Of a stretch of DNA of 64,000 bases, positions 46,977-62,218 are shown piece after piece. Within the stretch, counting starts at the first letter, position 1, and each line of letters opens with the position of its first letter. The notes under the pieces were generated by a model. The model saw only the letters and a list, made by a program, of their open reading frames with translations, was not told where the DNA came from and did no database searches. The position numbers were made by a program, and so were the translations under genes. The stretch comes from Lachnospiraceae bacterium (GTDB lineage: Bacteria > Bacillota > Clostridia > Lachnospirales > Lachnospiraceae): contig JAMPFQ010000004.1 of assembly GCA_023664345.1 (NCBI GenBank), positions 117,690 to 181,689 on the forward strand, written 5' to 3'.

Positions 46977-47495
46977 TTATACCTGCTTTCTCTGTAAATA
47001 TTTATCAAGCACGCTTAAAATATTGCTTGTGCACATACGTTTTTCTTTACAGGATAATTTATCCCCTGGTATTTCCTCGATTTTTTTCTTTCTTCTGAAC
47101 GAGGACGCTTCCGATACTTTTTCAGAATCTGAAATCCTTTTTCCCAAAAACACTTCCTCAACGTCATGGCAGAACCATATCAGATCATAATTTTTTCCCG
47201 CACAAAATTGACTGATATCGTTAAATTCCGCCGCATGTTCCATATTTCTCTCATACTGGTCAGTATCGATACAATATATTACCCTGGTGTCCCCATGTGT
47301 AAAATCCCTGGTCTTTTGATCGATCTCTTTCTCAACATCCCTGGAAGCATACCTTGATTTTGTATTCATATATACCTTGCTGATCTTGGTCTGATTATTT
47401 AATTCATACCAATGGCGTATCGCTTCCATAATGTAAATACTGTCCGTATCAGCCCTTTTGTTTGTTTCCACGCAAAATATCATTTGTACTGCCAT
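46977..47495 (-). CDS. Small partner of AAA ATPase, RloB/TOPRIM-like
   Basis: This 172-residue protein opens QMIFCVETNKRADTDSIYI, a strand ending in an acidic residue and followed by a helix. It continues with VIYCIDTDQYERN, an aspartate-rich DxD strand, and IWFCHDVEEVFLG. That Glu...DxD order is the outline of TOPRIM and RloB-like nuclease domains. It lies 3 nt after the ATPase gene and is AT-rich. RloB-like proteins with AAA partners occur in defence islands. Family assignment is tentative. Confidence 0.65.
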   Translation of the reverse strand: MAVQMIFCVETNKRADTDSIYIMEAIRHWYELNNQTKISKVYMNTKSRYASRDVEKEIDQKTRDFTHGDTRVIYCIDTDQYERNMEHAAEFNDISQFCAGKNYDLIWFCHDVEEVFLGKRISDSEKVSEASSFRRKKKIEEIPGDKLSCKEKRMCTSNILSVLDKYLQRKQV

Positions 47496-47498
47496 ATT

Positions 47499-48839
47499 TT
47501 ACTCTCCCAGAATCCCTACAAAATCGGTGGCATCTACGTTAAAAGGAGAATCTTTTATCATACCGTTTTTATAGCAGTTTTCCGGGGAAGCGTTTCCTCT
47601 GGACGTCCACGATACCAAATGATTGTCGCTTGATAAAAAGTCAATGGAATTTCTGTTTTCCCGCAGTATATTCATCGGATCCAGATTATGCGTGGTAAAG
47701 CACAGCTGCCCTTTGCCATAATACATAAAGTATTCAATCAGCTTACATAAATATACATCATTCAAATTGGAGTCCATTTCGTCAACAAAAACAATCCCCA
47801 CTGTGCTCGCCGCCACAAAACAGTCAAACAGCCGGATCAGCTTCTTGATGCCCGTGCTTTCAAACTCCCTGTTGATGCTGTAACTGCCATAATTCAAGTT
47901 CAGATCACATTCGTATTTTTCACCGTTTTCTTTCCGGTCAATGTCGATTGACACCAGGTCCGGCTTGAATATTTTAAGAAATTGTGTCAGTCGGTTGACT
48001 TTATCCTTATAATCTTCAAAATATTCTTTATCTATTATCCTGTCGCTGACGCTTAAATACATAGCTGTAATTTCACCATATTCAAAAACCCACTCCTGTA
48101 ATGCCTGATCGTTCAATCTGCTCTCCTTTAATCTTTTTCTTAAAAAATATAATTCATGTTGATCTTCTTCCTCAAGAAACACCTTTATCAATAATGTCAA
48201 TGTAAAACACGCTATTATATGAACGCATAATTCTCTATCAATTACCTCCGCATCTGCTAACAGAGCATCTTTTCTTAAATTCATGATATATATATATATA
48301 AGTGAATGCGCGGACAAAAGATTGGCGGATTTCCTTTCCAGAAATTGCTTTTCCCCATCACTGCAGGCGAGGTATGATAGTTCTCCATTCTGGCTTTCGA
48401 ATATGGTTTTGTAATGATTATTGACATAGTTCCCATTTTTCATTTTAAGCATTTCATATTGAATCTCATATAATCCCTTATCATTTTTCCCAATATAAAC
48501 TGAGTAATCATAAATGTCTTTAGATTCATTGACATCCACAAGAAACTCCATGCTAAACTGAAATGTTTTTGTAGACTTATTTATCATTTCATCCAGGAAA
48601 TCCTGGTTTTGGGATTCATTCAGATAGTTATCATTAAGGATTAAGTCCTGAGCGATCTTCACCGCCGTGATAATTGCCGATTTTCCCGAACCGTTCTCTC
48701 CATAAACAGCCTTAATCCTGTAGCGGTCGGAATCAAAGTCCTTATCAACCGTTTTCTTATAGAAATCAAGCCGGACTTCTTCCTTAATATTCTTTATTCC
48801 AGCAATACGCATGTTTAACAAATAAAAAACATTTGCCAT
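47499..48839 (-). CDS. AAA family ATPase (AAA_15/AAA_21-like)
   Basis: This 446-residue ATPase has Walker A GENGSGKS (residues 47-54), Walker B IVFVDEMDSNLND and the switch His region LCFTTHNLDPMNIL. A long helical insert separates the motifs, as in RloA/OLD-type proteins. It has low GC compared with the neighbouring operons. The gene order (ATPase then small acidic-motif protein), strand and composition match the module at 17460-19111, though the proteins are not close copies. It may guard against phage. Confidence 0.85.
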   Translation of the reverse strand: MANVFYLLNMRIAGIKNIKEEVRLDFYKKTVDKDFDSDRYRIKAVYGENGSGKSAIITAVKIAQDLILNDNYLNESQNQDFLDEMINKSTKTFQFSMEFLVDVNESKDIYDYSVYIGKNDKGLYEIQYEMLKMKNGNYVNNHYKTIFESQNGELSYLACSDGEKQFLERKSANLLSAHSLIYIYIMNLRKDALLADAEVIDRELCVHIIACFTLTLLIKVFLEEEDQHELYFLRKRLKESRLNDQALQEWVFEYGEITAMYLSVSDRIIDKEYFEDYKDKVNRLTQFLKIFKPDLVSIDIDRKENGEKYECDLNLNYGSYSINREFESTGIKKLIRLFDCFVAASTVGIVFVDEMDSNLNDVYLCKLIEYFMYYGKGQLCFTTHNLDPMNILRENRNSIDFLSSDNHLVSWTSRGNASPENCYKNGMIKDSPFNVDATDFVGILGE

Positions 48840-49275: not shown

Positions 49276-49995
49276 ATGAAATTTATGGAAGCGGTAGAGC
49301 ATGTGTTTTCTCACTACGCCGTATTTGAGGGGCGCGCCAGGCGCAGCGAATTCTGGTATTTTCAATTGTTCTATTATCTCGTCCTGACAGCTTTGGCCAC
49401 GCTGGCTTTCACCGGCATTGCAGCCTTGCTTATCCCCGTCTTCATGGTGGGAGCCCTCGTTCCCAACCTGGCAGTCTGCTGGCGGCGTTTCCACGACATT
49501 GGCAAAAGCGGCCTGTGGTATCTTATCATTTTTGTCCCGTTAGTGGGCGTTATCCTGATGATCGTATGGCTTTCACAGGACGGCCAGCCCGGCAACAACC
49601 AATATGGCCCCAATCCCAAAAATCCGGGACGTTACAGCGCTCCTCCCGGACAGGGTGCATCAAGCCTGCCGGGACGCGGATGCCTTGCCGTACAGTGTCT
49701 TGCGGGACCGCTGCAGGGACAGATCTATCCCATACGGGACGGAGAGATCCTGTTCGGACGGGAATCGGCCTGCGCCGTCAGGATGCCTGAGGGAACTCCC
49801 GGGATCAGCAGACGGCACTGCTGCATCAGGTGGCAGCAGGGAATGCCCATGCTGATCGACCTGTCGTCCAGCTATGGCACCTTTCTGGCGGACGGGAAAA
49901 AGCTCCCGCCCCACTACCCGGAACCGGTTGCAGCCGGAACGCGCTTTTATCTCGGAAACAGGGGAAACCTTTTTCAAATAATCGTCTATTCATAA
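49276..49995 (+). CDS. DUF805 membrane protein fused to FHA domain
   Basis: This 239-residue protein starts with a DUF805 module of about 110 residues (FEGRARRSEFWYFQLFYYLVLTAL and the RRFHDIGKSGLWYL motif, with four hydrophobic segments). After a Gly/Pro linker comes an FHA domain (about residues 135-239: LFGRESACAVRMPEGTPGISRRHCCIRW and LSSYGTFLADGKKL). FHA domains bind phosphothreonine peptides. It would hold a phospho-reader at the inner face of the membrane. It is the first gene of the seven-gene operon. Confidence 0.85.
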   Translation: MKFMEAVEHVFSHYAVFEGRARRSEFWYFQLFYYLVLTALATLAFTGIAALLIPVFMVGALVPNLAVCWRRFHDIGKSGLWYLIIFVPLVGVILMIVWLSQDGQPGNNQYGPNPKNPGRYSAPPGQGASSLPGRGCLAVQCLAGPLQGQIYPIRDGEILFGRESACAVRMPEGTPGISRRHCCIRWQQGMPMLIDLSSSYGTFLADGKKLPPHYPEPVAAGTRFYLGNRGNLFQIIVYS

Positions 49996-50008
49996 GGAGG
50001 AAACAGAC

Positions 50009-50632
50009 ATGGCAGAGATCAGACAGAAGATCATCAGCTGTCCGAAAGGACATTACTACGACGCCAACCGATACGAAAGCTGCCCCTATTGCACCACAGG
50101 AGGCTTCTCGCCCACCGTTGACCCTTTTGCAGGGGCAGGGGATGGTGTCGGACAGACGGAATATGACGGCGCCGGATCAGGAAACGCTTACGGAAACTTT
50201 ACCCCCACGGAAGCCCCTGAGGTCAAAAACCGGGCGGCGGAATCCATGAGCAAGACGCAGTTTGTGGATACTTCCACCCCCACCGGCCTGCCCACGCCCG
50301 TGGTAGGATGGCTGGTGGCAGTGGAGGGGCCCAGCCGGGGATCAGACTACCGGATCCATACCGGCTACAACTATATCGGTCGGGAAGTAGGCGATATCCG
50401 CATTCCGGGAGACAACACCATATCGGCGGAAAAAGATACCAATGTCACCTATGTGCCCCAGACAAAAAAATTCTACATCGCCCATGAACAGGGGAAAAAC
50501 GTCCTGCTGGTCAATGATCTCCCTGTGATCGGCGGCAGCATGGAACTGCATGATCATGACCTCATTATGATCGGCACCACGAAACTGATGTTTGTGGGCT
50601 TTTGCGGCGATAAGTTCAGCTGGGGCGACTGA
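50009..50632 (+). CDS. FHA-domain protein with zinc-finger-like N-terminus
   Basis: This 207-residue protein begins with a Cys/His motif (CPKGHYYDANRYESCPYC, Cys11, His15, Cys25, Cys28). A linker with Thr- and Asp-rich parts includes KTQFVDTSTPTG, a good kinase target. An FHA-like fold follows (YNYIGREVGDIRIPGDNTISAEKDTNVTYVP). The usual FHA SRxH motif is altered (SAEKDTNV), so phosphopeptide binding may be weak or different. AGGAGGAAACAG precedes the ATG. The phosphatase gene starts inside its stop codon. Confidence 0.8.
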   Translation: MAEIRQKIISCPKGHYYDANRYESCPYCTTGGFSPTVDPFAGAGDGVGQTEYDGAGSGNAYGNFTPTEAPEVKNRAAESMSKTQFVDTSTPTGLPTPVVGWLVAVEGPSRGSDYRIHTGYNYIGREVGDIRIPGDNTISAEKDTNVTYVPQTKKFYIAHEQGKNVLLVNDLPVIGGSMELHDHDLIMIGTTKLMFVGFCGDKFSWGD

Positions 50633-51690
50633 TGCGGAAAGGCTTGGGTATTCATATGACATTTTATAGCATGGCAATAAATCATTTCATTCTGTTGTCG
50701 GGAAATGACGCAGAAGCGGCGGAAGCCCTGATATCGGAATCCCTGATACCGGAAGATCTGACCGCACTGCTCCCGGCGGCAGGCGCTTTGGCCGCTGTTA
50801 TACTGCTGGCTCTCTGTCTGTTCCTGTTCTTTCGCATCAGGCGTAAACAGAAAAGGGAGGCAGAGAATATGGCAGCGGAAAACTTACCGAAAATTGCCCC
50901 CATTGGGGATGTGCTGGTAGGAAAACTACATGAGCAGGGCGCCCGGGAGGGACAGCAGGATTGCTTCGGCGTGTCGGATCAGTCCCTGATGCGGGATCGG
51001 GGCCTGCTGGCAGTAGTGGCTGACGGCATGGGCGGCCTGTCGGACGGCGACAAAGTCAGCGCCGCGGCAGTCAGCGCGGTCCTGGACGGATTCGCCCTAT
51101 ATCAGGGCAAGTGCACACAGGAACAGCAGCTGCTCATGCTGGCAAGGCAGGCGGTGGAAGCCGTGGACGAACTGCTGGGCCCCTCCGGCTATAACAAAAG
51201 CGGTTCTACCCTGGTCATGGGCCTGATCCGTGACAGCGCTTTCTCTTTCCTGTCCATCGGTGACAGCCGAATCTGCCTGTACCGTCACGGACTGCTGATG
51301 CAGCTGAACCGGGAACATATCTTTCGGAACCAACTGGCTCTTGACGCCATAAACGGGAATCTTCCCCTGCAGGACGCATACACAGACTCCCGTGGCAGCG
51401 GTCTTACCAGCTTTCTTGGCATGGGCGCACTGGAACATATCGATATGCCCGCGTCACCTGTACGGCTGATTCCGGGAGATAAACTGCTGTTGATGAGCGA
51501 CGGCGTTTACAATGCCTTGAGCGAGGAAGAACTGATCTCTTCCCTGAACGGCTCTCCCGAAGATGTGGTGTCAGGCCTCCGTCAGGCTATCCTGAAGAAA
51601 GGATTTACCAATCAGGATAATTACACCGCCGTCATTCTGGAATGTATGCCTGCCAACGGCACGGGGCAGGCAAAGAAAGAACAGGAATAA
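50632..51690 (+). CDS. Membrane-anchored PP2C-type Ser/Thr phosphatase
   Basis: This 352-residue protein has one TM near residues 45-67 (LLPAAGALAAVILLALCLFLFF) and a cytoplasmic PP2C domain. The latter has the metal-site motifs QDCFGVSDQ, VADGMGGLSDG, SIGDSRICLYRHG and LLLMSDGVYNAL, and DNYTAVIL at the end. It removes phosphate from Ser/Thr with two Mn or Mg ions. The ATG overlaps the previous stop (TGATG). No strong ribosome binding site lies ahead of 50632, so re-initiation is likely; the ATG at 50656 is an alternative. Confidence 0.9.
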   Translation: MRKGLGIHMTFYSMAINHFILLSGNDAEAAEALISESLIPEDLTALLPAAGALAAVILLALCLFLFFRIRRKQKREAENMAAENLPKIAPIGDVLVGKLHEQGAREGQQDCFGVSDQSLMRDRGLLAVVADGMGGLSDGDKVSAAAVSAVLDGFALYQGKCTQEQQLLMLARQAVEAVDELLGPSGYNKSGSTLVMGLIRDSAFSFLSIGDSRICLYRHGLLMQLNREHIFRNQLALDAINGNLPLQDAYTDSRGSGLTSFLGMGALEHIDMPASPVRLIPGDKLLLMSDGVYNALSEEELISSLNGSPEDVVSGLRQAILKKGFTNQDNYTAVILECMPANGTGQAKKEQE

Positions 51691-51693
51691 AAA

Positions 51694-52416
51694 ATGAGTG
51701 GATCGATCTTATACGCGAATTATACGGATACAGGCGGACGCCCCTGCAACGAGGACACAGTGGATCATAAAAGAACCGACCCGGATCATCTCTGTGTGGC
51801 GCTGGCTGACGGCCTGGGCGGGCATGGAGGCGGGAAATCGGCATCTCAGGAAGCGGTAAATATGATCCTGGAAAACTGGAATCATTCCTTTACCCCCAAT
51901 GACCTGTGCGACCTGATCATGGATGCCCACCGTCAGGTTCTGTCCCTGCAGACGCCAGTCTGCAGGATGAAGACCACCCTAGTTGTCCTGACGGTGGGGC
52001 CGGATCGGGCCATATGGGCTCATGTGGGCGATTCCCGGCTCTATCATTTCCTGGACGGAAAACTGATCTTCCAGACCAGGGATCACAGCGCCTCGCAGAT
52101 TGCCGTGCTGATGAACCAGATCAGGCCTGAGGAGATCCGGTTCCATGAGGACCGAAGTCACATTTTCCGGGCCCTGGGCCAGGAAAACGGTTTAAGCGTG
52201 GACACCCAGGAACAGCCCCTCTCACCCGGGCGGCACGCCTTTCTCCTCTGCAGCGACGGCTTCTGGGAATATGTCTATGAAAAGGAAATGGAGGAAGACC
52301 TGCATCTTGCGGCTTCCCCTGAGGATTGGCTGGAACGTATGAGGAACCGTCTGGGCAGCCGGGCTGGTGAGGACAACGACAACAATACCGCGGCCGCGGT
52401 CTGGCTGACGGTCTGA
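51694..52416 (+). CDS. Soluble PP2C-type Ser/Thr phosphatase
   Basis: This 240-residue protein is a minimal PP2C domain: RPCNEDTVDHK, VALADGLGGHGGGKSA, VGDSRLYHFLDGKL, FLLCSDGFWEYV and the ending EDNDNNTAAAVWL, all metal-site motifs. It has no TM, unlike the phosphatase 3 nt upstream. Two phosphatases in one operon suggest separate membrane and cytosolic pools of substrate. It overlaps no neighbour and is followed by the protease-FHA gene after 29 nt. Confidence 0.92.
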   Translation: MSGSILYANYTDTGGRPCNEDTVDHKRTDPDHLCVALADGLGGHGGGKSASQEAVNMILENWNHSFTPNDLCDLIMDAHRQVLSLQTPVCRMKTTLVVLTVGPDRAIWAHVGDSRLYHFLDGKLIFQTRDHSASQIAVLMNQIRPEEIRFHEDRSHIFRALGQENGLSVDTQEQPLSPGRHAFLLCSDGFWEYVYEKEMEEDLHLAASPEDWLERMRNRLGSRAGEDNDNNTAAAVWLTV

Positions 52417-52445
52417 TTCTTTGAAAGAGAGGATATAACCAAACC

Positions 52446-53858
52446 ATGAGAAAAAGAAACACCAAAGTTAAACTACGGATTCTGAGCCTCTGCATATGCC
52501 TGTTTGCCCTGGTATGCACCGGATGCTCCGGGTCATCTTCCGGCGTTTCCGGATATACGGATGCCAAAAACGGCGTGGTGGTGGTCTGCGAATATCTGGC
52601 TAACATCGCCGTGGAAAAAGACGGACAATATATGACCGTGTCAGACGCGGAACAGGCGATCGCCCACGGCAGCGGTTTTTTCATAGGAAATACGGGGGAA
52701 GACCCTCAATACCTGATCACCAACTATCATGTGATCGAGGATTACATGGAATATAACGCTGGAGAGACTTTCTTTGTTGAGGACACGGATGGGATCCTTT
52801 ATTACATGAAGAGTTACCTCCGGGTATATTTTGACTCCTCGGATTACGCGGAGGCCTATGTGGTGGATTACAACAAGACCGCCGATGTGGCGGTCCTGCG
52901 CCTGGAGAAACCCACTGATGCCCGGAAAGCCCTGCTCCTCTGCTCTCCCACAAACGATATGGTAGGATCCAAAGTGTACGCCATCGGCTACCCCGGCCTG
53001 TCCGACAATATCAGTGTGGATTCCGTCACTTCCTGGGGGCTGGACGATATCACTCTCACCTCCGGCATCATCAGCCGTCTTACCACTACTTCCGGAACCG
53101 GCGTGCAGAGCATACAGATCGACGTTGCCATCAAACACGGAAATTCCGGCGGCCCGCTGGTCAATGAAGACGGATCTGTTCTGGGCATCAATACGTGGAG
53201 TGTCACCAACAGCAGCGCGGAAGAGACAAATTACGCCGTCAATATCGATGAGGTCATCACGCTCCTGAACCTCCATAATATACCATATGCCACGGAATCT
53301 TCCGCAGGCCATGGGCCGAATCCAGCGGTCATTATCGGGATCTGTGTGGCCGCTGCTGTCATAGTTGTGATCGTCATCCTGGTGATCTGCAAAGGCAGGA
53401 AATCTTCCGGTGAAAAGTCCGGCACAACGTCACAGTCCGCTTCCCGGGACAGCGGATATGCTCCCGCAGCGCCACCCGCACAGCCGTCAGGTTCCTCGGC
53501 CCCCCAGCGCAAAGCCGATCCCCAGGATTCCGGTTTCCGGCTCCAGGGCGTGTCAGGAGCGCTGGAGGGACGGCGCTTTATGATCAGAAAGGACAGCCCG
53601 CTGACACTGGGGCGGAATCCCGATACCTGCAATGTGACATTTCCCGCCGATACTGCGGGTGTCAGCAATAATCACTGCCAGATCTGGTACGATCGCGGAA
53701 AGATATATATCAAAGACCTGGGATCCAGTCACGGCACTTTCCTCGTCTCAGGGGCGAAACTGGCCGCAAACCAGCCCATGCTGCTGTCTCCGGGAGAGAG
53801 TTTTAGCCTGGGTTCCGAGGAACAGACTCTGGTATTAGTTCAAAAGGGAGGCAATTAA
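52446..53858 (+). CDS. Trypsin-like serine protease, TM segment and FHA domain fusion
   Basis: This 470-residue protein has an N-terminal signal (hydrophobic to Cys27, VCTGC). An extracellular chymotrypsin/HtrA-like protease domain follows, with catalytic triad His96 (NYHVIED), Asp148 (KTADVAVLRL) and Ser235 (HGNSGGPL). There is one TM at about 295-316, a Ser/Pro-rich linker and a cytoplasmic FHA domain (about 375-470: LTLGRNPDTCNVTF, SNNHCQIW, DLGSSHGTFL). The layout would join proteolysis outside the cell to phosphothreonine reading inside. I know of no standard family with this layout. It sits between the phosphatase and kinase genes. Confidence 0.88.
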   Translation: MRKRNTKVKLRILSLCICLFALVCTGCSGSSSGVSGYTDAKNGVVVVCEYLANIAVEKDGQYMTVSDAEQAIAHGSGFFIGNTGEDPQYLITNYHVIEDYMEYNAGETFFVEDTDGILYYMKSYLRVYFDSSDYAEAYVVDYNKTADVAVLRLEKPTDARKALLLCSPTNDMVGSKVYAIGYPGLSDNISVDSVTSWGLDDITLTSGIISRLTTTSGTGVQSIQIDVAIKHGNSGGPLVNEDGSVLGINTWSVTNSSAEETNYAVNIDEVITLLNLHNIPYATESSAGHGPNPAVIIGICVAAAVIVVIVILVICKGRKSSGEKSGTTSQSASRDSGYAPAAPPAQPSGSSAPQRKADPQDSGFRLQGVSGALEGRRFMIRKDSPLTLGRNPDTCNVTFPADTAGVSNNHCQIWYDRGKIYIKDLGSSHGTFLVSGAKLAANQPMLLSPGESFSLGSEEQTLVLVQKGGN

Positions 53859-53859
53859 G

Positions 53860-55110
53860 ATGGCTGATCAGTTCTGTCCCCATTGCATGAACCATCTGTC
53901 CGAGGCGCAGAATTTCTGTCCCGACTGCGGCATGGACATCAACATGGAAGCGCCGCCCCACCACCTGCCCATAGGCACGGTACTGCGCAACAGGGGAAAA
54001 CATGCTTTTCTCTTTGGCGTGGTAAAAGGCGAGGGCGGCTTCGGCCTTACATACATTGGCAGGGAACTGTCCTCTGACCGCCTGGTAGCGATCAAGGAAT
54101 ATTATCCGTTCCGCTGCCAGCCCCAGCGTCTGCCCGACGGTTCCGTACAGCCCCAGGAACGGTTCCAGGATATCTATGCCCATGGAATGCAGAGTTTTTT
54201 AAGCGAGGCCAGCATGCTCCAGGCCGTGTGCGATATCCCATCCATCGTTCATGTGCTGGATTATTTTGAGGCAAACGGAACGGCCTATATGGTGATGGAA
54301 TACCTGAACGGCTCCACACTGTATCACATCATGCAGACACAGGAGCGGATCTCACCGGAGATCCTGCTTCCCAAATTCCTGCCGCTGATGCGTGACCTGT
54401 CCAGCCTGCATACTGCCGGTGTGCTCCACAGGGACATCGCCCCGGACAATATCATGTGGATGCCAGACGATACCCTGAAACTCCTGGACTTTGGCTGCGC
54501 CCGCTCCCTGGAGGACGGTCGATCCATGACCGTGGTGCTGAAGCCGGGGTTTGCCCCCATTGAGCAATATCAGACCCGGGGACAGGGGCCTTACACGGAT
54601 ATTTACGCCCTGTGCGCCACCATCTATTACTGCCTTACCGGCAAGGTTCCCCCGGCTTCACCGGAGCGGCTGACCGCCACCTTTGACAACCAGCAGGATC
54701 CCCTGATCCCTCCCTCGGCAATGGGCATCTCCATTCTGCCGGAGCAGGAGCAGTGCCTGATGTGGGGACTGTCCTTACAGCCCTCCACCCGTCCCCAGAA
54801 AATAGCGGATCTGGCCTCCCGCCTGGAGAAAGCGTCCACGCCTCCCCGGAAACAGGCTGTCCAACTCCCGGAGAATCCGGCGATCCAGCCTGATCCAGCC
54901 GTTGTGGAGAATGCGGCTGCCAGCCCAGACCCCGCGGCTGTGGGGAATATGGCCGCCAACCCGGTCGTTTCCTACAACGACTATCAGACCGAGGCCAACA
55001 ATACGCCACCGGAACAACTGCGCTCATTTTTGAGCGAACACAAGCTTGTGGTGGGCATTATCGCGGCTGTACTGCTCTTTATCCTGCTGGGACTGCTTAC
55101 CAGCATTTAA
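53860..55110 (+). CDS. Tail-anchored Ser/Thr protein kinase with zinc ribbon
   Basis: This 416-residue kinase has an N-terminal zinc ribbon (CPHC at 6-9, CPDC at 20-23), then a kinase domain. The domain has a glycine loop GEGGFGLTYIG, Lys79 in VAIKEYYP, the catalytic loop HRDIAPDN and LDFGCAR. The catalytic-loop Lys of ordinary kinases (HRDxKPxN) is Ala, as in a clostridial clade with HRDISPDN. It ends with a Pro/Ala linker and a C-terminal TM (about 394-416), so the catalytic part stays in the cytoplasm. It begins 1 nt after the protease-FHA gene. Confidence 0.9.
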   Translation: MADQFCPHCMNHLSEAQNFCPDCGMDINMEAPPHHLPIGTVLRNRGKHAFLFGVVKGEGGFGLTYIGRELSSDRLVAIKEYYPFRCQPQRLPDGSVQPQERFQDIYAHGMQSFLSEASMLQAVCDIPSIVHVLDYFEANGTAYMVMEYLNGSTLYHIMQTQERISPEILLPKFLPLMRDLSSLHTAGVLHRDIAPDNIMWMPDDTLKLLDFGCARSLEDGRSMTVVLKPGFAPIEQYQTRGQGPYTDIYALCATIYYCLTGKVPPASPERLTATFDNQQDPLIPPSAMGISILPEQEQCLMWGLSLQPSTRPQKIADLASRLEKASTPPRKQAVQLPENPAIQPDPAVVENAAASPDPAAVGNMAANPVVSYNDYQTEANNTPPEQLRSFLSEHKLVVGIIAAVLLFILLGLLTSI

Positions 55111-55147
55111 CTTCCTTGACTTACCAATTCTGTTCAGAGGAGAAATA

Positions 55148-55176
55148 TTGTGAAAAACAGAAAAAAAAGCTACAAT
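55148..55176 (+). promoter_or_regulatory. Internal promoter for large kinase gene
   Basis: TTGTGA (55148-55153) and TACAAT (55171-55176) are 17 nt apart, about 35 nt before the kinase ATG. The 100-nt gap between the two kinase genes is the longest in the operon, so an extra promoter is plausible. Confidence 0.55.
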
Positions 55177-55210
55177 ATGATCATGCTTGGAGAGAAAGGA
55201 GGTGCTGATC

Positions 55211-58200
55211 ATGCCTAAACAGTATTGTCCCTACTGCATGTCCCCTGTGCCGGAGGGCGAGACCTGTTCCGTGTGCGGGCTGACCGAGGGAACCTATGTA
55301 TCCTCGCCCCATCATCTGCCGCCGGGAACCGTCCTGATGGACCGCTATCTGGTAGGACGCGTGCTGGGCGAGGGCGGATTTGGGATCACCTATATCGGCT
55401 GTGACACGCGGCTGGAGTTAAAAGTCGCCATCAAGGAATATTATCCTTTGGACCGGGCTACCAGAAACGCCTCCGCATCCCTGGCGGTAACAGGCTTCAT
55501 CGGCCCCTCCGCCAAAAGCTTTGAGCGGGGCAAGCAGAAATTCCTGTCGGAAGCCCAGGTGATGGCACGCCTGGACAAACAGCAGGTCATCGTCAGCGTC
55601 CGCGACTTTTTCGAGATCAACAACACGGCATATATCGTGATGGAATATATAGAGGGCGTCACCTTTCATGAACTTGTGGAACAGAAAGGCGGACGGATCG
55701 CCCCGGAAGAATTCTTTCCCATGATCGAGCCCCTGTTCCATGCCCTGTCCATCATGCATGAGCACGGACTGATCCACCGGGATATCTCTCCCGATAACCT
55801 GATGCTGGAGAATGGCAAGATCCGCCTGCTGGATTTCGGCTGCGCCCGGGAAGCCTCCCGGGGCACGGAGACCATGACCATCGCCCTAAAGCACGGTTAT
55901 GCGCCCATCGAGCAGTACCAGCAGAAAGGGCAGGGACCCTGGACGGATCTCTATGCCCTGTGCGCCACCATCTATTACTGCCTCACCGGAAGAGTTCCCC
56001 CGCAGGCACTGGACCGTATCACGGAAGACGAACTGCTGCTGCCCAGCAAGCTGGGGGTCAACCTGACGGAGGCACAGGAGAAAGCGCTGTTGAAAGGAAT
56101 GCGCCTCCAGCCCAACCGCCGCTTTGCCAATGCGGAAGAATTATGGGCCGCTCTCTATACCACTGCGCCTGAAAACAGTGCGGCTGTCATACCGTTTCAT
56201 GCTCCCCGGACGGAAACGGAGACTCCGGCCACATCAGAAACCGAACCTGAAATTGCAGACAGCGGAATTGTTTCCGCGGACACATCAGGAAAAGATGATC
56301 TCCAGCCTGGAAAGGCCATAGCGGATATCATTGACAAGGGCAAACCGGATTCCAGAGAAACCGCACCAAAAGCTGCTGGCGGATACAATGGGGACGCAAC
56401 GGGCGCGGCTAAAGTGACTGGCAATAATCCCAGAACATCGGACACCGCCAAAGTGGGCGACATCAGTTCCCAGACAGCAGAAAGCGCCGACGGGTACAGT
56501 ACGGAAACAGAAGATTTCCCTGCAGCAGGAAACACTCCTGCCACCCCTAAATGGAAAACATTGTTACAGAATAAGAAGTTTCTCATTCCGGCGGGAACCG
56601 CTGCCACCTGCGTTCTGATCATCGCGGGCGTGGCGCTCTTCCGTGCCGGAACCAGGGAGACCATGAATCCCGGTCAGGAAAGTACGGAAAACCTTTCCAC
56701 GGAAAGCAGCCAGGCTTCCGCCCAGGTCACTCCTGACGAGGCAGCGCCCTCCCCAACGGATCATCCCGAATCACCGGATCCCGGCATATTTGAGAGCGCT
56801 TACCGCCTGACGGAATCCGATGTGGAACGCTTTCAGGAACTGATGGAAGATTCTTCCGTCAGCGCTGTTATCCTGGAGGGCCAATGGTTCAATTTCCCGG
56901 AGACCTTAATCATTACAAAGCCCGTGATGGTGGCGGAAGGAACCGCGTGGGACGCAGTGAACCTGACAGTGGAAGAAAACGGCTTCCTGCAGATCGACGG
57001 ACGGCTGAACATGCCGGAACCCGGTCTTCTGCGGCTTGTCGGCGACAGTGCGCGCATGACGGTCAGCGGCACAGGAACATTTTATACAAAGGGTATGGTC
57101 TGGATGGATCAGGAAGAATGCCTGGTCATGGACGGCCAGTGGGACTCCGAGGAGAATGCCCATGTGCTGGTATTTTCCGAAGACATCTTTGAGAAAGAGG
57201 ACGTGGTATCCGTGAAAGACCTGGATACCCTGGAGCGCGTTGCGCGGCTGGGTGTAACAGCCAGCATCGACGAGAATATCACCCTGCCCTTTGGCCTAGG
57301 CATTACTTCTCCCATACGCATCTCGGAGGGTGTGGAAGTCACCCTTTCGCTGGGTCAGGAATTTCAGCTGGGAGGGGATGGTCTGCTACTCAATAACGGC
57401 ACGATCAACGGCATATATTTGTGTGACAACGCCGTTATGATCAATCGCGGCACCCTGACCGGGGAAATATACGGTTGGGATGGGGGCGGTTTCTGGATTC
57501 AGGATAACAGCGCCCTGATCAATTACGGCTCTGCTGACGCCTGTGATGTGAGCCGGCTGTGGGACGACTCCCTGCTGCTCAATATGGGAACCATAACCGC
57601 CTATGATTACAACCTGACAGGCGGGGATATGGCAAACTTCGGCACTATCGACATACCGACTGACAACGGACAGCTTTTCATAAGCGGCGGCAGCTGGTTT
57701 TTAAACGGCCCCGACGGCGTGGTCACTGCGGCATCTTTATCCAGCCTGACCAACCGGGGCAGGATACGCAACGAGGGCGAGATCCATCTGCAGACCGGTT
57801 CCCTGTACCGGAGCGCCCTGCTGGAAAATAACGGGGTCTTCCGGGTGGACAGCGGATCGTCACTGGATACCACGGAAGGAAACGGCCTCTACTACGGCTC
57901 CGGGGAATATTCCCTGAGCGGAAGCCGGGCAAAAGTCTGGCCTACCATTGGCAGCCTAACATTGGCAGACAGGGAATGGCTCACCGTATCCACGGAAGAG
58001 GAACTGATCCAGGCCATGGAAAACCCTGATGTTCGGGAGATCTGTATTGAAACGGCTGTTACCGTGAACTCCGACCTGATCGTCAGAAAAGACCTGTACC
58101 TCACCCAAAACGGTTCCCTGACCCTGGCGGACGGCGCTGCCCTGACCGATTACGGCGGCCTGATCAAACTGTATGACCAGTCCAGCCTGCGGGCGGACAA

Positions 58201-58942
58201 TATCACTCTGTGCGAGGACTCCCAGCTGTACATGGAGGGCGGCGCCACCCTGGAAGTGAATCCCGGAGGGAGCCTTACTCTGGACAGCGCCCTGTTCTGG
58301 GGTCTGTCAGGGAATATCCGGCTGAGCGGAACCGACATAACCCTGAAGAACAATTCCGGCTTCCTGTTCCAAATGCCGGATACCTTTGACGTAGCGGACA
58401 GTGCGATATCCCTGGAATCAGGCTCCACCTTTACCACTCCTTACCAGGACGGCGCCAGCCTGCGCAGCGCAGCGTTTACCATTCCCGAAAACGCCAAGAC
58501 CGCCAGCATGATCCTGCTAGCGGACACGGAGATGACAGACTGCACCCTGAACATCGACGGGGGAATCCTGTTGAATACCGCCGCGGACATGACGTTTCAG
58601 AACTGTTCCGTGAACATTGGCAAAAGCGGCTACCTGCAGACTGCCTGCGGCGGTTCACACCTGAATCTTCTTGGAGGCTCCTCCCTGGAAGTGTGGGGGA
58701 TCATGGATGCCGCCGGCTGGGACGAAGCCAGTCTCACCGTCCATGGCTCTTTCAAGAACCACGGTATCGTACAGCTTAACGTGCCGGTCAGCCTGTCCGA
58801 ACCGATCATAAACGAAGGCACTATCTATTATAATGCCAGAGAAAATGCCCGCCATTTGGAGGCTCACGGCGTGGAACGGCTGGATCTGTCGCAAATCACC
58901 GGCAATCCGCCCATAGATCGCGTCATCGAGAACATACACTGA
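55211..58942 (+). CDS. Receptor-type Ser/Thr kinase with large repetitive extracellular domain
   Basis: This 1243-residue protein has a zinc ribbon (Cys6, 9, 19, 22). The kinase domain (about 42-315) has GEGGFG at 53-58, Lys75, HRDISPDN at 189-196 and DFG at 208-210. A Thr/Glu/Ser-rich linker and a TM at about 457-477 follow. The remaining roughly 760 residues lie outside and consist of repeated beta units (LLNNGTINGIYLCDN, MINRGTLTGEIYGWD, LLNMGTITAYDYN), as in right-handed beta-helices. The domain could bind a surface polymer. ATG 55211 follows AGGAGGTG by 7 nt; the TTG at 55187 is less likely. Confidence 0.88.
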   Translation: MPKQYCPYCMSPVPEGETCSVCGLTEGTYVSSPHHLPPGTVLMDRYLVGRVLGEGGFGITYIGCDTRLELKVAIKEYYPLDRATRNASASLAVTGFIGPSAKSFERGKQKFLSEAQVMARLDKQQVIVSVRDFFEINNTAYIVMEYIEGVTFHELVEQKGGRIAPEEFFPMIEPLFHALSIMHEHGLIHRDISPDNLMLENGKIRLLDFGCAREASRGTETMTIALKHGYAPIEQYQQKGQGPWTDLYALCATIYYCLTGRVPPQALDRITEDELLLPSKLGVNLTEAQEKALLKGMRLQPNRRFANAEELWAALYTTAPENSAAVIPFHAPRTETETPATSETEPEIADSGIVSADTSGKDDLQPGKAIADIIDKGKPDSRETAPKAAGGYNGDATGAAKVTGNNPRTSDTAKVGDISSQTAESADGYSTETEDFPAAGNTPATPKWKTLLQNKKFLIPAGTAATCVLIIAGVALFRAGTRETMNPGQESTENLSTESSQASAQVTPDEAAPSPTDHPESPDPGIFESAYRLTESDVERFQELMEDSSVSAVILEGQWFNFPETLIITKPVMVAEGTAWDAVNLTVEENGFLQIDGRLNMPEPGLLRLVGDSARMTVSGTGTFYTKGMVWMDQEECLVMDGQWDSEENAHVLVFSEDIFEKEDVVSVKDLDTLERVARLGVTASIDENITLPFGLGITSPIRISEGVEVTLSLGQEFQLGGDGLLLNNGTINGIYLCDNAVMINRGTLTGEIYGWDGGGFWIQDNSALINYGSADACDVSRLWDDSLLLNMGTITAYDYNLTGGDMANFGTIDIPTDNGQLFISGGSWFLNGPDGVVTAASLSSLTNRGRIRNEGEIHLQTGSLYRSALLENNGVFRVDSGSSLDTTEGNGLYYGSGEYSLSGSRAKVWPTIGSLTLADREWLTVSTEEELIQAMENPDVREICIETAVTVNSDLIVRKDLYLTQNGSLTLADGAALTDYGGLIKLYDQSSLRADNITLCEDSQLYMEGGATLEVNPGGSLTLDSALFWGLSGNIRLSGTDITLKNNSGFLFQMPDTFDVADSAISLESGSTFTTPYQDGASLRSAAFTIPENAKTASMILLADTEMTDCTLNIDGGILLNTAADMTFQNCSVNIGKSGYLQTACGGSHLNLLGGSSLEVWGIMDAAGWDEASLTVHGSFKNHGIVQLNVPVSLSEPIINEGTIYYNARENARHLEAHGVERLDLSQITGNPPIDRVIENIH

Positions 58943-58946
58943 TTGT

Positions 58947-60068
58947 TCAATCCCCTCCGGCGGAGCCAAAGACACAGGAAATGACCTGTTCCAGCCTGTC
59001 GCTCATGGGCTCCTCCGGACTGGAGGAGATGGCGTAAAGGATCAGCCAGTCCGTAGCATTTCTGGGATCCAGGGGCGCCATGCCGCTGTCTTCCAGAATA
59101 GCGTTCAATGTCCACCAGTGGTATTCCACCTTGTCCTCCAGCGGCATATAGTCCTCGTCCAGTTCATTATAGGAATCCGATCCCGCCGTTTCATTTTCCG
59201 TGACCACATACAGCAGGAGCAGCAGCTTGCGCGGCACATCCTCCTTGTGGTTGCGGATGTTTTTTATGGAGGTGGCGTTGGGCCAGTTCTGCTTTAACAG
59301 CTTCTGCACTACCGTGTAATCCGTCCGTTTCCTGCCGGAGGGAATCTGCAGGGACAGATAGGTGTCCATCACCGCCTCCAGGGAATAATCCGGCTCCGTT
59401 TCCTCATAATCCCATTGGGGCGTGGGATGGATCAGCTGATTCAGATATTTTTCAAAGTAATAATAAGCCCGCAGGTGCATGGTCCCGAAATTATCCAGAT
59501 TTCTGACATAACAGTTTCGCAGTTCTTCCACGGTTCCCGCAATTTGAAATTCCGCCCGCACCTCATGGGTCAGCCGGGATGTGCGCTTAGTGCGCGCCGC
59601 ATTGCGCTCCTCCACAGGGGGCAGGGAATCAAAAAACCTCCCCGCATTTTCATAGGCATATCCGCTGCGCAAAAACCAGACAAATACGATCTCCCTGTTA
59701 TTCCGATACTGGATGCCGAAACCGGTACAGAGACTGAGCAGATAATTTAATTGTTGTTCTCCCAGATTCAGGGCAAAGGCGATCCGAAACACATCCTCCC
59801 TGTCGGAAGGATTGTTCCGCCCGGAAAGCCAATTGCGGATCTTTTTGGAGATCGACTGGGGATTCGCTTCCGGCGTGACCGACAGGAAAAAATCCGTCAG
59901 GCGGACGGACAGATCCACAGCGGGATACATCTCCCGCAATGTGTCCGCAAAACTCCGCATCACGATCCGACCGTTTCTCAGGTAGTCCGCAGCCATGGCA
60001 GGAGTCATGTTCCCCGATATGATATTTTCATACTCCACAGCGGATAAATGGGTCAATTCAACTGGCAT
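58947..60068 (-). CDS. Hypothetical protein with XRE-like N-terminal region
   Basis: This 373-residue soluble protein has, at about residues 73-110, a helix-turn-helix-like stretch (SISKKIRNWLSGRNNPSDREDVFRIAFALNLGEQQLNYLL). That pattern is seen in Xre-type regulators of clostridia. The rest is helical and charged with no motif I recognise. It converges on the kinase gene with only 4 nt between stops. It has its own consensus promoter upstream. It could be a regulator of the phospho-signalling operon or a kinase substrate; neither is shown. Confidence 0.7.
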   Translation of the reverse strand: MPVELTHLSAVEYENIISGNMTPAMAADYLRNGRIVMRSFADTLREMYPAVDLSVRLTDFFLSVTPEANPQSISKKIRNWLSGRNNPSDREDVFRIAFALNLGEQQLNYLLSLCTGFGIQYRNNREIVFVWFLRSGYAYENAGRFFDSLPPVEERNAARTKRTSRLTHEVRAEFQIAGTVEELRNCYVRNLDNFGTMHLRAYYYFEKYLNQLIHPTPQWDYEETEPDYSLEAVMDTYLSLQIPSGRKRTDYTVVQKLLKQNWPNATSIKNIRNHKEDVPRKLLLLLYVVTENETAGSDSYNELDEDYMPLEDKVEYHWWTLNAILEDSGMAPLDPRNATDWLILYAISSSPEEPMSDRLEQVISCVFGSAGGD

Positions 60069-60700: not shown

Positions 60701-60900
60701 ACAGGGCTTACAGCGACGCCGATTCTCTGCGGCGCATGAAAGGGCAGCCGCACTTCCAAATTCTGCGGCGTGCGGAAGAGCAACAGCATATTCAGACGGA
60801 GAGGGAAATGCAGTACAGGCTGCGCCCGCGATGGACAAAGCCTGTTCCGGATCATAATACAGCCTTGCGGGCGGCGGGAACAGGTTCCGTTCAGTGTTGA
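60697..60900 (+). pseudogene. Frame-shifted continuation of upstream hypothetical protein
   Basis: Reading from 60697 in the frame -1 to that of the 157-residue protein gives VDRAYSDADSLRRMKGQPHF..., 67 residues rich in Gln, Glu and Arg, then TGA at 60898. The composition and the third-position GC look coding. No strong start or ribosome binding site lies within it (ATG at 60739 is unsupported). A frameshift mutation, or programmed -1 shift near CTGCGGTAG, would join it to the preceding gene. Confidence 0.45.
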
Positions 60901-60919
60901 AATAAGCATAGCTTATTTC
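60899..60919. repeat. Perfect hairpin just upstream of reverse transcriptase
   Basis: GAAATAAGC (60899-60907) and GCTTATTTC (60911-60919) pair around ATA. It starts within the stop of the frame-shifted stretch and ends 36 nt before the reverse-transcriptase start. A Pyr-rich tract follows. It might terminate the upstream transcript or fold in the leader of the enzyme message. Confidence 0.5.
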
Positions 60920-60955
60920 TTTCAAAGCTTTTTCCCTCTCTCTTTTTACGAACGG

Positions 60956-62218
60956 ATGACGATGGAGACAAATATTGTGGAACTGGCCGCCACTCGGGAG
61001 AGTTGGCTGGCCTTTTTAAATGAAAAGAAAGAAAGGCAGCACCTGAGCCATAAGGAGGCAGAACAGATTCGGGACTTTATCGACCGCCAGGGCTATCTGC
61101 CGCTCTGCGAAGCCTGCATGGAAAGAACCTTTCCCTCCGATCTTCCCGTCAAACAGACCATCAATAAAGAGGGCAGTCGCAAAAAGCGGGTAGTATACAC
61201 TTTTTCCGGCGATGAGGGCATATTCCTGAAATTTGTGGCTCACAGCTTAAACAGGTATGAAGATGTCTTTTCCGACAACTGCTACGCTTTCCGCCGCCGG
61301 ATAGGCGTGAAAGAAGCCATGGAGCGTCTGCGGACAGACCCCCGGACAAAGCAAAGCTGGTGTTTAAAGACAGATATCAGCAACTATTTTAATTCCATAG
61401 ATGTGGCAAAACTGCTGCCCATGCTGACATTTTTACAGGAGAAAAATCCCGAAGTCCATGACCTGCTGGCACGGCTGCTCACAGAGGAGCGGGTCCTTGC
61501 GGGCGGCAAGCCGATCCGGGAGCCTCATGGCGCCATGGCGGGGACGCCCATATCCCCCTTTCTGGCCAATCTGTATCTTGGGGACGCAGATCGCTTTTTT
61601 GCAAAAAAGGGTGTTCTGTATCTGCGGTACTCCGATGATATCCTGCTCTTTGCGGACAGCAGGGAGGAGCTGGATCACAGGCAGGAGCAGCTGTATGGAA
61701 TGCTGACGGCGCTGGGATTGTCGGTGAACCCTGATAAGGTAAGCGTCTCCGCGCCGGGGGAGAGTTTTGAGTTCCTGGGATTCGCATACCGACAGGGGGA
61801 ACTGGATCTGTCCGCCAACACCATCCGCAAGACCAAAGCAAAGATCCGGCGGAAAAGCGATGCCCTGAGGCGCTGGCAGCGCAGGAAAGAACTTTCCCCC
61901 GACAAGGCAGCGGTGGGGCTGATCCACACCATGAACCGGAAATTTTACGGCTGTATCAACCCGCTGGAGGACGAACAGGAAGCGGAAGATATCTTCACCT
62001 GGAGCCGCTGGTTTTTCCCCTTGCTGACCACCGACAGGGGACTGCGGGAAATCGACGCATACATGCAGGAATACGTCCGCTACGCCGCCACCGGACGGCA
62101 TTATAAGGGAAACTACCGGATTTCCTATGAACAGATGAAACGGTGGGGGTATGTGAGCCTGGTGCACGAATTTTATCAATATAAGGAGCATAGGAAACAA
62201 AATGGCGCATTCAACTGA
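60956..62218 (+). CDS. Free-standing reverse transcriptase (group II-like)
   Basis: This 420-residue enzyme has reverse transcriptase motifs in order. Motif 3 is CLKTDISNYFNSID (catalytic Asp140), motif 4 AGTPISPFLANLYL, motif 5 YLRYSDDILLF with YSDD at 225-228, and then NPDKVSV and EFLGFAY. A C-terminal thumb-like basic region follows. It lacks maturase X/HNH domains, and no group II intron RNA is seen around it. Motif 4 has the SP form, not the SQ form typical of diversity-generating retroelements. It could belong to an unknown-group or defence-type RT. ATG 60956 or 60962 are both possible, with a weak ribosome binding site. It overlaps the MATE gene by 17 nt. Confidence 0.85.
   Translation: MTMETNIVELAATRESWLAFLNEKKERQHLSHKEAEQIRDFIDRQGYLPLCEACMERTFPSDLPVKQTINKEGSRKKRVVYTFSGDEGIFLKFVAHSLNRYEDVFSDNCYAFRRRIGVKEAMERLRTDPRTKQSWCLKTDISNYFNSIDVAKLLPMLTFLQEKNPEVHDLLARLLTEERVLAGGKPIREPHGAMAGTPISPFLANLYLGDADRFFAKKGVLYLRYSDDILLFADSREELDHRQEQLYGMLTALGLSVNPDKVSVSAPGESFEFLGFAYRQGELDLSANTIRKTKAKIRRKSDALRRWQRRKELSPDKAAVGLIHTMNRKFYGCINPLEDEQEAEDIFTWSRWFFPLLTTDRGLREIDAYMQEYVRYAATGRHYKGNYRISYEQMKRWGYVSLVHEFYQYKEHRKQNGAFN

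Follow-up and report, generated by a model that had tools for sequence, protein, structure and literature searches.

The window analysed here is the whole stretch of 64,000 nucleotides (nt) from contig JAMPFQ010000004.1 of a Lachnospiraceae bacterium. At positions 49276–58942 it contains a seven-gene operon (g1–g7, all on the + strand) encoding FHA-domain proteins, PP2C phosphatases, a trypsin-like protease and Ser/Thr kinases. The open reading frames (ORFs) lie where an original prediction, made from the DNA letters alone, had placed them, and their domains are as it stated, with the qualifications given below. The intergenic distances computed from the ORF coordinates are 13, −1, 3, 29, 1 and 100 nt. 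The gap between g6 and g7 is therefore the sole one above 30 nt, whereas two such exceptions had been claimed.

The gene g1 (49276–49995) encodes a DUF805 membrane part fused to an FHA domain (Pfam DUF805 6.8e-28, FHA 6.6e-12). Two transmembrane (TM) helices are predicted by hydropathy at 35 and 79, and the FHA domain keeps the GR and SRRH residues. The product of g2 (50009–50632), termed ZnFHA, consists of a putative zinc finger, a likely disordered linker and a divergent FHA domain, as judged from a family alignment and a structure model. The two PP2C phosphatases, g3 (50632–51690; Pfam PP2C_2 4.7e-12) and g4 (51694–52416; PP2C_2 1.4e-12), both retain the catalytic motifs. While g3 has an N-terminal TM helix at 49 and a presumably cytoplasmic PP2C domain, g4 appears soluble; no TM helix is predicted by hydropathy in g2 or g4. 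The gene g5 (52446–53858) encodes a trypsin-like protease joined through a TM helix to an FHA domain (Trypsin_2 1.3e-25, FHA 3.9e-13), with TM segments predicted by hydropathy at 10 and 296. All three residues of the protease triad are present in g5; the His, Asp and Ser columns are 95, 96 and 93% conserved in 63 aligned sequences. The original prediction counted three FHA readers and, in addition, a protease-FHA fusion. The number three stands (g1, g2 and g5), but the fusion is one of the three. For g2 there is no Pfam match, and it is the family profile and the model that reveal the zinc finger with a divergent FHA domain.

Both g6 (53860–55110; Pkinase 9.3e-30) and g7 (55211–58942; Pkinase 9e-32) are zinc-ribbon Ser/Thr kinases with the VAIK, HRD and DFG motifs, and g6 also carries PIEQY. 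The ribbon of g6 is called from Pfam zinc-ribbon matches below their cut-offs, and that of g7, for which no Pfam zinc-ribbon match was obtained, from a CxxC..CxxC pattern. According to the TM prediction g6 has no outside domain and ends in its C-terminal membrane helix at 396. The only operon protein kinase with an outside domain is g7, where about 766 aa follow a TM helix at 458. A good ribosome-binding site, judged by eye, precedes the ATG of g7 at 55211, and a TTG at 55187 could serve as a start as well. The gap ahead of g7 holds a promoter-like pattern that matches at 9 of 12 positions; 14 such matches occur in the stretch against 8.0 expected. The predicted helices would allow the kinases, both phosphatases and each of the three FHA domains to lie in the cytoplasm, while the protease and the g7 outside domain would face the opposite side of the membrane. 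The gene content supports the proposed membrane-spanning module for writing, reading and erasing phosphothreonine inside the cell; the proposed sensing outside would fall to g7 alone.

The ZnFHA protein g2 has putative zinc-finger ligands C11, H15, C25 and C28, and its linker holds Thr67 and Thr83. The structure model (predicted local distance difference test score 80.9) contains an FHA fold at about 97–199 and has low confidence over about 31–90. Among its nearest structures are GarA, OdhI, DgcB and MDC1. The linker Thr is retained in 87 of 90 aligned family members, and a KT motif was found 72 times in ZnFHA proteins against 5.2 expected after shuffling. FHA residues of the family were judged by column conservation, as a fixed GR..SRxH pattern with ill-fitting spacing matched just 1 of the 90. 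A KT phosphosite common to all partners was considered and rejected. The motif is not enriched in the trypsin-FHA (Tryp-FHA) proteins (9 vs 10.8 expected) or in PP2C (16 vs 17.8), and only mildly so in kinases (60 vs 36.8), VWA-FHA proteins (15 vs 9.9) and unlabelled genes (145 vs 107.5).

We use the term ZnFHA cassette for a ZnFHA gene clustered with PP2C and with zinc-ribbon kinases bearing P-x-E-Q-Y, a combination that is present in the window. Searching one genome per GTDB species with a five-row ZnFHA alignment yielded 455 relatives among 492 pattern matches. The best 80 of these 455 were kept for locus counts, and one locus (L048) was dropped as the same record as L030, leaving 79. Within them the ZnFHA genes of L086 and L088 are identical, as are those of L112 and L026. 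PP2C occurs in 76 of the best 79 loci, a kinase in 68 and both in 65; Tryp-FHA is found in 40, VWA in 48, PrsW in 14, EssC in 3 and n8, the convergent neighbour described below, in 5. All 14 loci missing PP2C or kinase are 17.1 kb or shorter and cut by a contig end. Every locus above 20 kb (46/46) has both, a result that stands if fragments and kinase-FHA labels are excluded. The strand of ZnFHA is shared by 512 of 522 labelled genes, and 72 of the 79 ZnFHA genes have a labelled neighbour on the same strand. The original prediction would have been undermined by scattering of the genes in relatives, and they are clustered there instead. A 78-row tree, with ranks taken from record titles, represents seven phyla: Bacillota (48), Pseudomonadota (12), Synergistota (5), Thermodesulfobacteriota (4), Acidobacteriota (3), Myxococcota (2) and Rhodothermota (1), plus three ungrouped rows including the window.

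As the best loci had been picked by ZnFHA similarity, evenly drawn genomes were added. A nine-row ZnFHA alignment matched 31 of 200 family genomes at 1e-10, and the protease alone matched 18 of 200. At 1e-20 the gene was matched in 20 of 61 genus genomes, and at 1e-25 in 8 of 299 genomes of a phylum sample. PP2C is present in all of a set of nine fetched loci with ZnFHA. Of twenty further regions from 19 family-sample genomes (G079 and G088 omitted), 18 contain PP2C and 11 contain a kinase; PP2C is missing from L150 and from L153, the latter of which ends just past ZnFHA. In ten more regions, four from the genus and six from the phylum sample, PP2C accompanies ZnFHA throughout; seven further genus genomes and G344 were omitted from this set, and L168 looks like the record of L100. 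Instead of being confined to this operon, the set forms a widespread cassette, which these counts describe as accessory and patchy, yet staying together.

The kinases were counted in loci L021–L039 and L049–L134 plus the window. A TM helix follows the kinase domain in 126 of 143 kinases. Grouping by sequence sorts the 117 kinase outside domains longer than 60 aa into 43 clusters, of which 25 are singletons, and that of g7 clusters with L129 only. The motif P-x-E-[QA]-[YF] after DFG is found in 125 of 141 cassette kinases vs none of eight kinases in fetched loci without ZnFHA. The PrkC of the window's own genome has SPEQA at the corresponding place. On the effector side, a TM helix separates the protease from FHA in 58 of 59 proteins and VWA from FHA in 45 of 45 (together 103/104), and all 18 PrsW-FHA proteins have at least three TM helices. 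Because a TM helix constantly lies between effector domain and FHA, this architecture suggests control from inside to outside. Two further ideas were dropped: a lipoprotein anchor of g5, as a lipobox-like pattern occurs in 4 of 59 proteins only, and DUF805 as a general component. Confident DUF805 matches are confined to the window, its genus sister L128 and an Azospirillum FHA-kinase-DUF805 protein; two other matches are short and weak, and none was found in ten further loci from the genus and phylum samples.

Among close relatives, L128 has six of the seven genes in window order (DUF805-FHA, ZnFHA, PP2C, PP2C, Tryp-FHA, kinase), after which its contig ends. Best-hit identities to the window are 55–80%, highest for ZnFHA. 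L129 carries FHA, ZnFHA, PP2C, PP2C, Tryp-FHA and three kinases with a convergent n8 at the end; its FHA protein has three predicted TM helices and no DUF805 match. In the window n8 (58947–60068, − strand) encodes a predicted helical protein with no convincing Pfam match and a poor structure model. Relatives adjoin the cassette in L129, L086, L088, L094 and L026/L112, with a fragment in L087, and n8 may be an optional partner.

Among plasmids, ZnFHA matched 19 records, none over more than 80% of its length. The Azospirillum lipoferum plasmid NC_016587.1 (L139) has VWA-FHA, ZnFHA, PP2C, PP2C, Tryp-FHA, FHA-kinase-DUF805 and a kinase, with an integrase upstream, a transposase downstream and OmpA and DUF4384 neighbours. 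ZnFHA-type genes on Ruegeria and Leisingera plasmids (L140, L141) lie beside dynamin-family genes, L141 also being annotated with a zeta toxin family gene, and a dynamin-FHA fusion occurs in L023. A second sub-type appears in 9 of the twenty family-sample regions, where VWA, a protein of about 725 aa and one or two proteins of about 141 aa (two in 7 of the 9) precede ZnFHA. Its loci are L153–L161 and also L132, L167 and L170–L172, with VWA in most and DnaJ in L161; L132, L161 and L167 come from the window's genus. The profile of the 141 aa family matches Hcp1 weakly (E 0.37), and the sub-type could be an undescribed machine in Bacillota. At L152:3596–19901 a type VII secretion locus with WXG100 and EssC has a kinase-kinase-ZnFHA-PP2C-PP2C group embedded in it.

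The genome of the window (3.88 Mb, 47 contigs) has five Pkinase, four PP2C_2 and four Pfam FHA matches. Chance clustering is not an issue, because the 9.7-kb operon holds two of the five, two of the four and two of the four, respectively. Another kinase, PP2C and FHA-DUF6382 group on contig C25 (L039) adjoins Tad-pilus-type genes and a WG-repeat protein.

Three other explanations of the operon have to be weighed. It might be a variant of the PrkC/Stp-type kinase system for growth and the cell wall, since it has the same enzyme classes, and both its kinases and its PP2Cs score against the same general models. This we regard as very improbable. A true PASTA kinase/Stp pair is located on contig C12 with 602 and 299 bits, above the cut-offs, whereas the kinases g6 and g7 score 130.5 and 153 against a cut-off of 450 bits (NF033483) and the phosphatases g3 and g4 score 88 and 140.6 against 230 (NF033484). 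The activation-segment motif also differs, and the cassette has an accessory distribution. The view of the original prediction that this is not the usual PrkC/Stp pair thus holds. An anti-phage or conflict system that sits amid defence-type genes and triggers shutdown through the protease is suggested by the flanks. An AbiLi-type AAA ATPase (47499–48839, − strand; PADLOC 114 bits) adjoins the operon, next to its 172 aa partner (46977–47495, − strand), and downstream lies a reverse transcriptase of the DRT class RT_UG26 (60770–62218, + strand; PADLOC 516 bits). A 157 aa gene just ahead of the latter has no Pfam match above cut-off. In a PADLOC scan of the operon with g7 left out and no cut-offs printed, g6 matched PD-T4-6 kinase models with up to 143 bits and mad6 with 139, g5 matched RT-Protease_XI with 67 and LmuA with 44, and g4 matched PDC-M21C with 38. 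The patchy distribution and the plasmid relatives beside integrase, transposase or dynamins would also fit. However, the matches of g4–g6 lie largely in the kinase, protease or phosphatase part, a complete system was not seen, and against the NCBIfam MADS6 cut-off of 460 bits g6 and g7 reach 78 and 110. The G+C content is 36.8% in the AbiLi pair vs 56% in the operon. Loci L021–L039 and L049–L134 yielded no relatives of the two flanking genes, and in L128 the flanking place is taken by a membrane protein whose match to YtvI is below cut-off. On the last two grounds the defence-island reading was rejected, and a defence role seems improbable to us.

It is less improbable, though still unlikely, that the operon serves to regulate a machine of secretion or of the cell surface (type VII, Hcp-like or an ExbB-like motor), which lies elsewhere in this genome or has been lost. 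EssC occurs within the fetched ZnFHA stretches L051, L061, L065, L152, L162 and L163, and in L029 a trypsin-PP2C-kinase triad without ZnFHA adjoins an FtsK/EssC protein. The weak Hcp1 likeness of the 141 aa proteins points the same way, as does a gene family whose one scanned member is of the MotA/ExbB type and which recurs in 9 loci, all from Gram-negative phyla by their titles; a second, unassigned family recurs in 12. For this genome the evidence is to the contrary. No WXG100 was found at E 0.001, with the control matched in B. subtilis, and no EssC above the TIGR03928 cut-off (778), the only match being one of 115 bits at an FtsK gene; the genome has one full FtsK and one short match. A type VII secretion partner, although real in some relatives, was thus rejected here. 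A general link between ZnFHA and EssC was rejected as well, for among the 200 family genomes 31 have ZnFHA, 42 have EssC above cut-off and 8 have both, where chance alone would give about 6.5. In two more of the ZnFHA genomes a partial EssC falls short of the cut-off. In the Bacillaceae locus L077 the neighbours look metabolic by eye. The machine neighbours, where present, suggest a portable controller.

On balance we favour the reading that the operon belongs to a widespread, patchy cassette for phosphothreonine signalling across the membrane. The gene content, clustering, domain order, membrane helices, catalytic motifs, fold of g2 and near-invariant linker Thr, which sequence or prediction establishes, would fit the following mechanism. 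The outside domain of g7 would sense a surface or envelope cue and alter the kinase activity, and g6, lacking such a domain, may be constitutive or serve as a second kinase. Both would phosphorylate the ZnFHA linker, Thr83 first and perhaps Thr67, as well as partners. The phosphothreonine could be read either by the FHA domain of ZnFHA itself, as in GarA, OdhI and DgcB, or by the FHA domains of the membrane effectors. Recruitment or switching of the FHA tails of g1 and g5 would then gate the external trypsin-like protease from inside, and the membrane and soluble PP2Cs would reset the circuit. Overall, a phospho-hub resembling GarA would be driven by exchangeable antennae and would gate the membrane effectors from the cytoplasmic side.

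Several observations weigh against this proposal. Two of the usual FHA residues are replaced in g2 (R140 to A, H143 to D), as they also are in L128, and the branch of g2 in the tree is very long; for these reasons it may bind phosphate weakly. Thr83 is just 14 residues ahead of the FHA fold, which is short for cis docking. A smaller alignment puts the Thr of the window about two columns off the family Thr, and its surroundings differ in L129. The FHA domain of human MDC1 ties structurally with the bacterial switches. Moreover, 17 of the 143 kinases have no predicted TM helix after the kinase domain, the protease is not universal (Tryp-FHA in 40 of 79 relatives), and Pfam finds no VWA protein among g1–g7 and n8, while 48 of the 79 loci have one.

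A bolder form of the proposal is possible, and we advance it tentatively. The cassette might be a portable inside-out chassis, in which a ZnFHA hub with a phospho-tail like that of GarA is combined with two PP2Cs and with kinases whose antennae are freely exchanged. Through phosphothreonine it could control whichever membrane effectors bear an FHA tag in the cytoplasm, such as a surface protease, the intramembrane protease PrsW, a VWA protein or DUF805, and different lineages may have coupled it to type VII secretion, to an Hcp-like machine or to proton-driven motors. If the signalling role is true, some gut Lachnospiraceae and many other bacteria would have a second, accessory phosphothreonine network beside PrkC/Stp. 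This would be a clear unit of hub, writers, erasers and FHA-tagged effectors that is testable gene by gene. It predicts a cytoplasmic kinase controlling an extracytoplasmic protease, with one precise candidate phosphosite in Thr83 of g2, and the kinase antennae would be a source of variation that may encode niche cues.

The claim that no described system has this set agrees with searches aimed at it in the open-licence PMC literature, which found none. The parts can each be compared with known systems. PrkC/Stp likewise combines a Hanks kinase with a PP2C, but the operon has no match at the level of a PASTA kinase, and the genome has a separate pair. The TerY-P triad consists of vWA, PP2C and a zinc-ribbon kinase; the operon shares the latter two, but it is without vWA and has three FHA proteins. 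PP2C is also part of the threonine phosphorylation pathway of the type VI secretion system (T6SS; PpkA, PppA, Fha, TagF), in which kinase, PP2C and FHA reader similarly act on a membrane machine. In the Agrobacterium T6SS, Fha is reported to read phosphothreonine on TssL (PMC3953482). In contrast to that pathway, the operon has two kinases, two PP2Cs and three FHA proteins, with a protease as the likely output. Against the model of TagH-type FHA (TIGR03354, cut-off 120.25 bits), g1 scores 24.8 and g5 27.7, and g2 has no match.

The switches GarA, OdhI and DgcB share with g2 the FHA fold, being among its nearest structures, and a conserved Thr ahead of it. Unlike them, g2 has a zinc finger in front, a Thr near the fold and membrane partners; no metabolic enzyme target was seen, and a GGDEF domain is absent. 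Zinc finger and FHA are also combined in the archaeal motility repressors ArnA-ArnB, where the ArnA finger is described as a four-Cys RanBP2 type (PMC6509490), whereas the ligands in g2 are C, H, C and C and the window is without the VWA gene of the Arn module. PrsW peptidases fused to FHA or Zn-ribbon have been proposed as signalling peptidases acting on FHA-sensed cues (PMC3482391), so the idea of an FHA-linked signalling peptidase is not new. That passage treats single proteins rather than a gene set, and the window has a trypsin-like protease instead. A predicted actinobacterial theme places a zinc-ribbon kinase, PP2C and a standalone vWA beside GAP1-N2 GTPases (PMC7159879). It shares the zinc-ribbon kinase with PP2C and vWA with the cassettes, but it is GTPase-centred, and neither ZnFHA nor a protease-FHA fusion figures in the passage. 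The parts and the logic, namely control of membrane machines by kinase, PP2C and FHA, are therefore known, while their assembly, the ZnFHA hub and the spread of the cassette appear to be undescribed.
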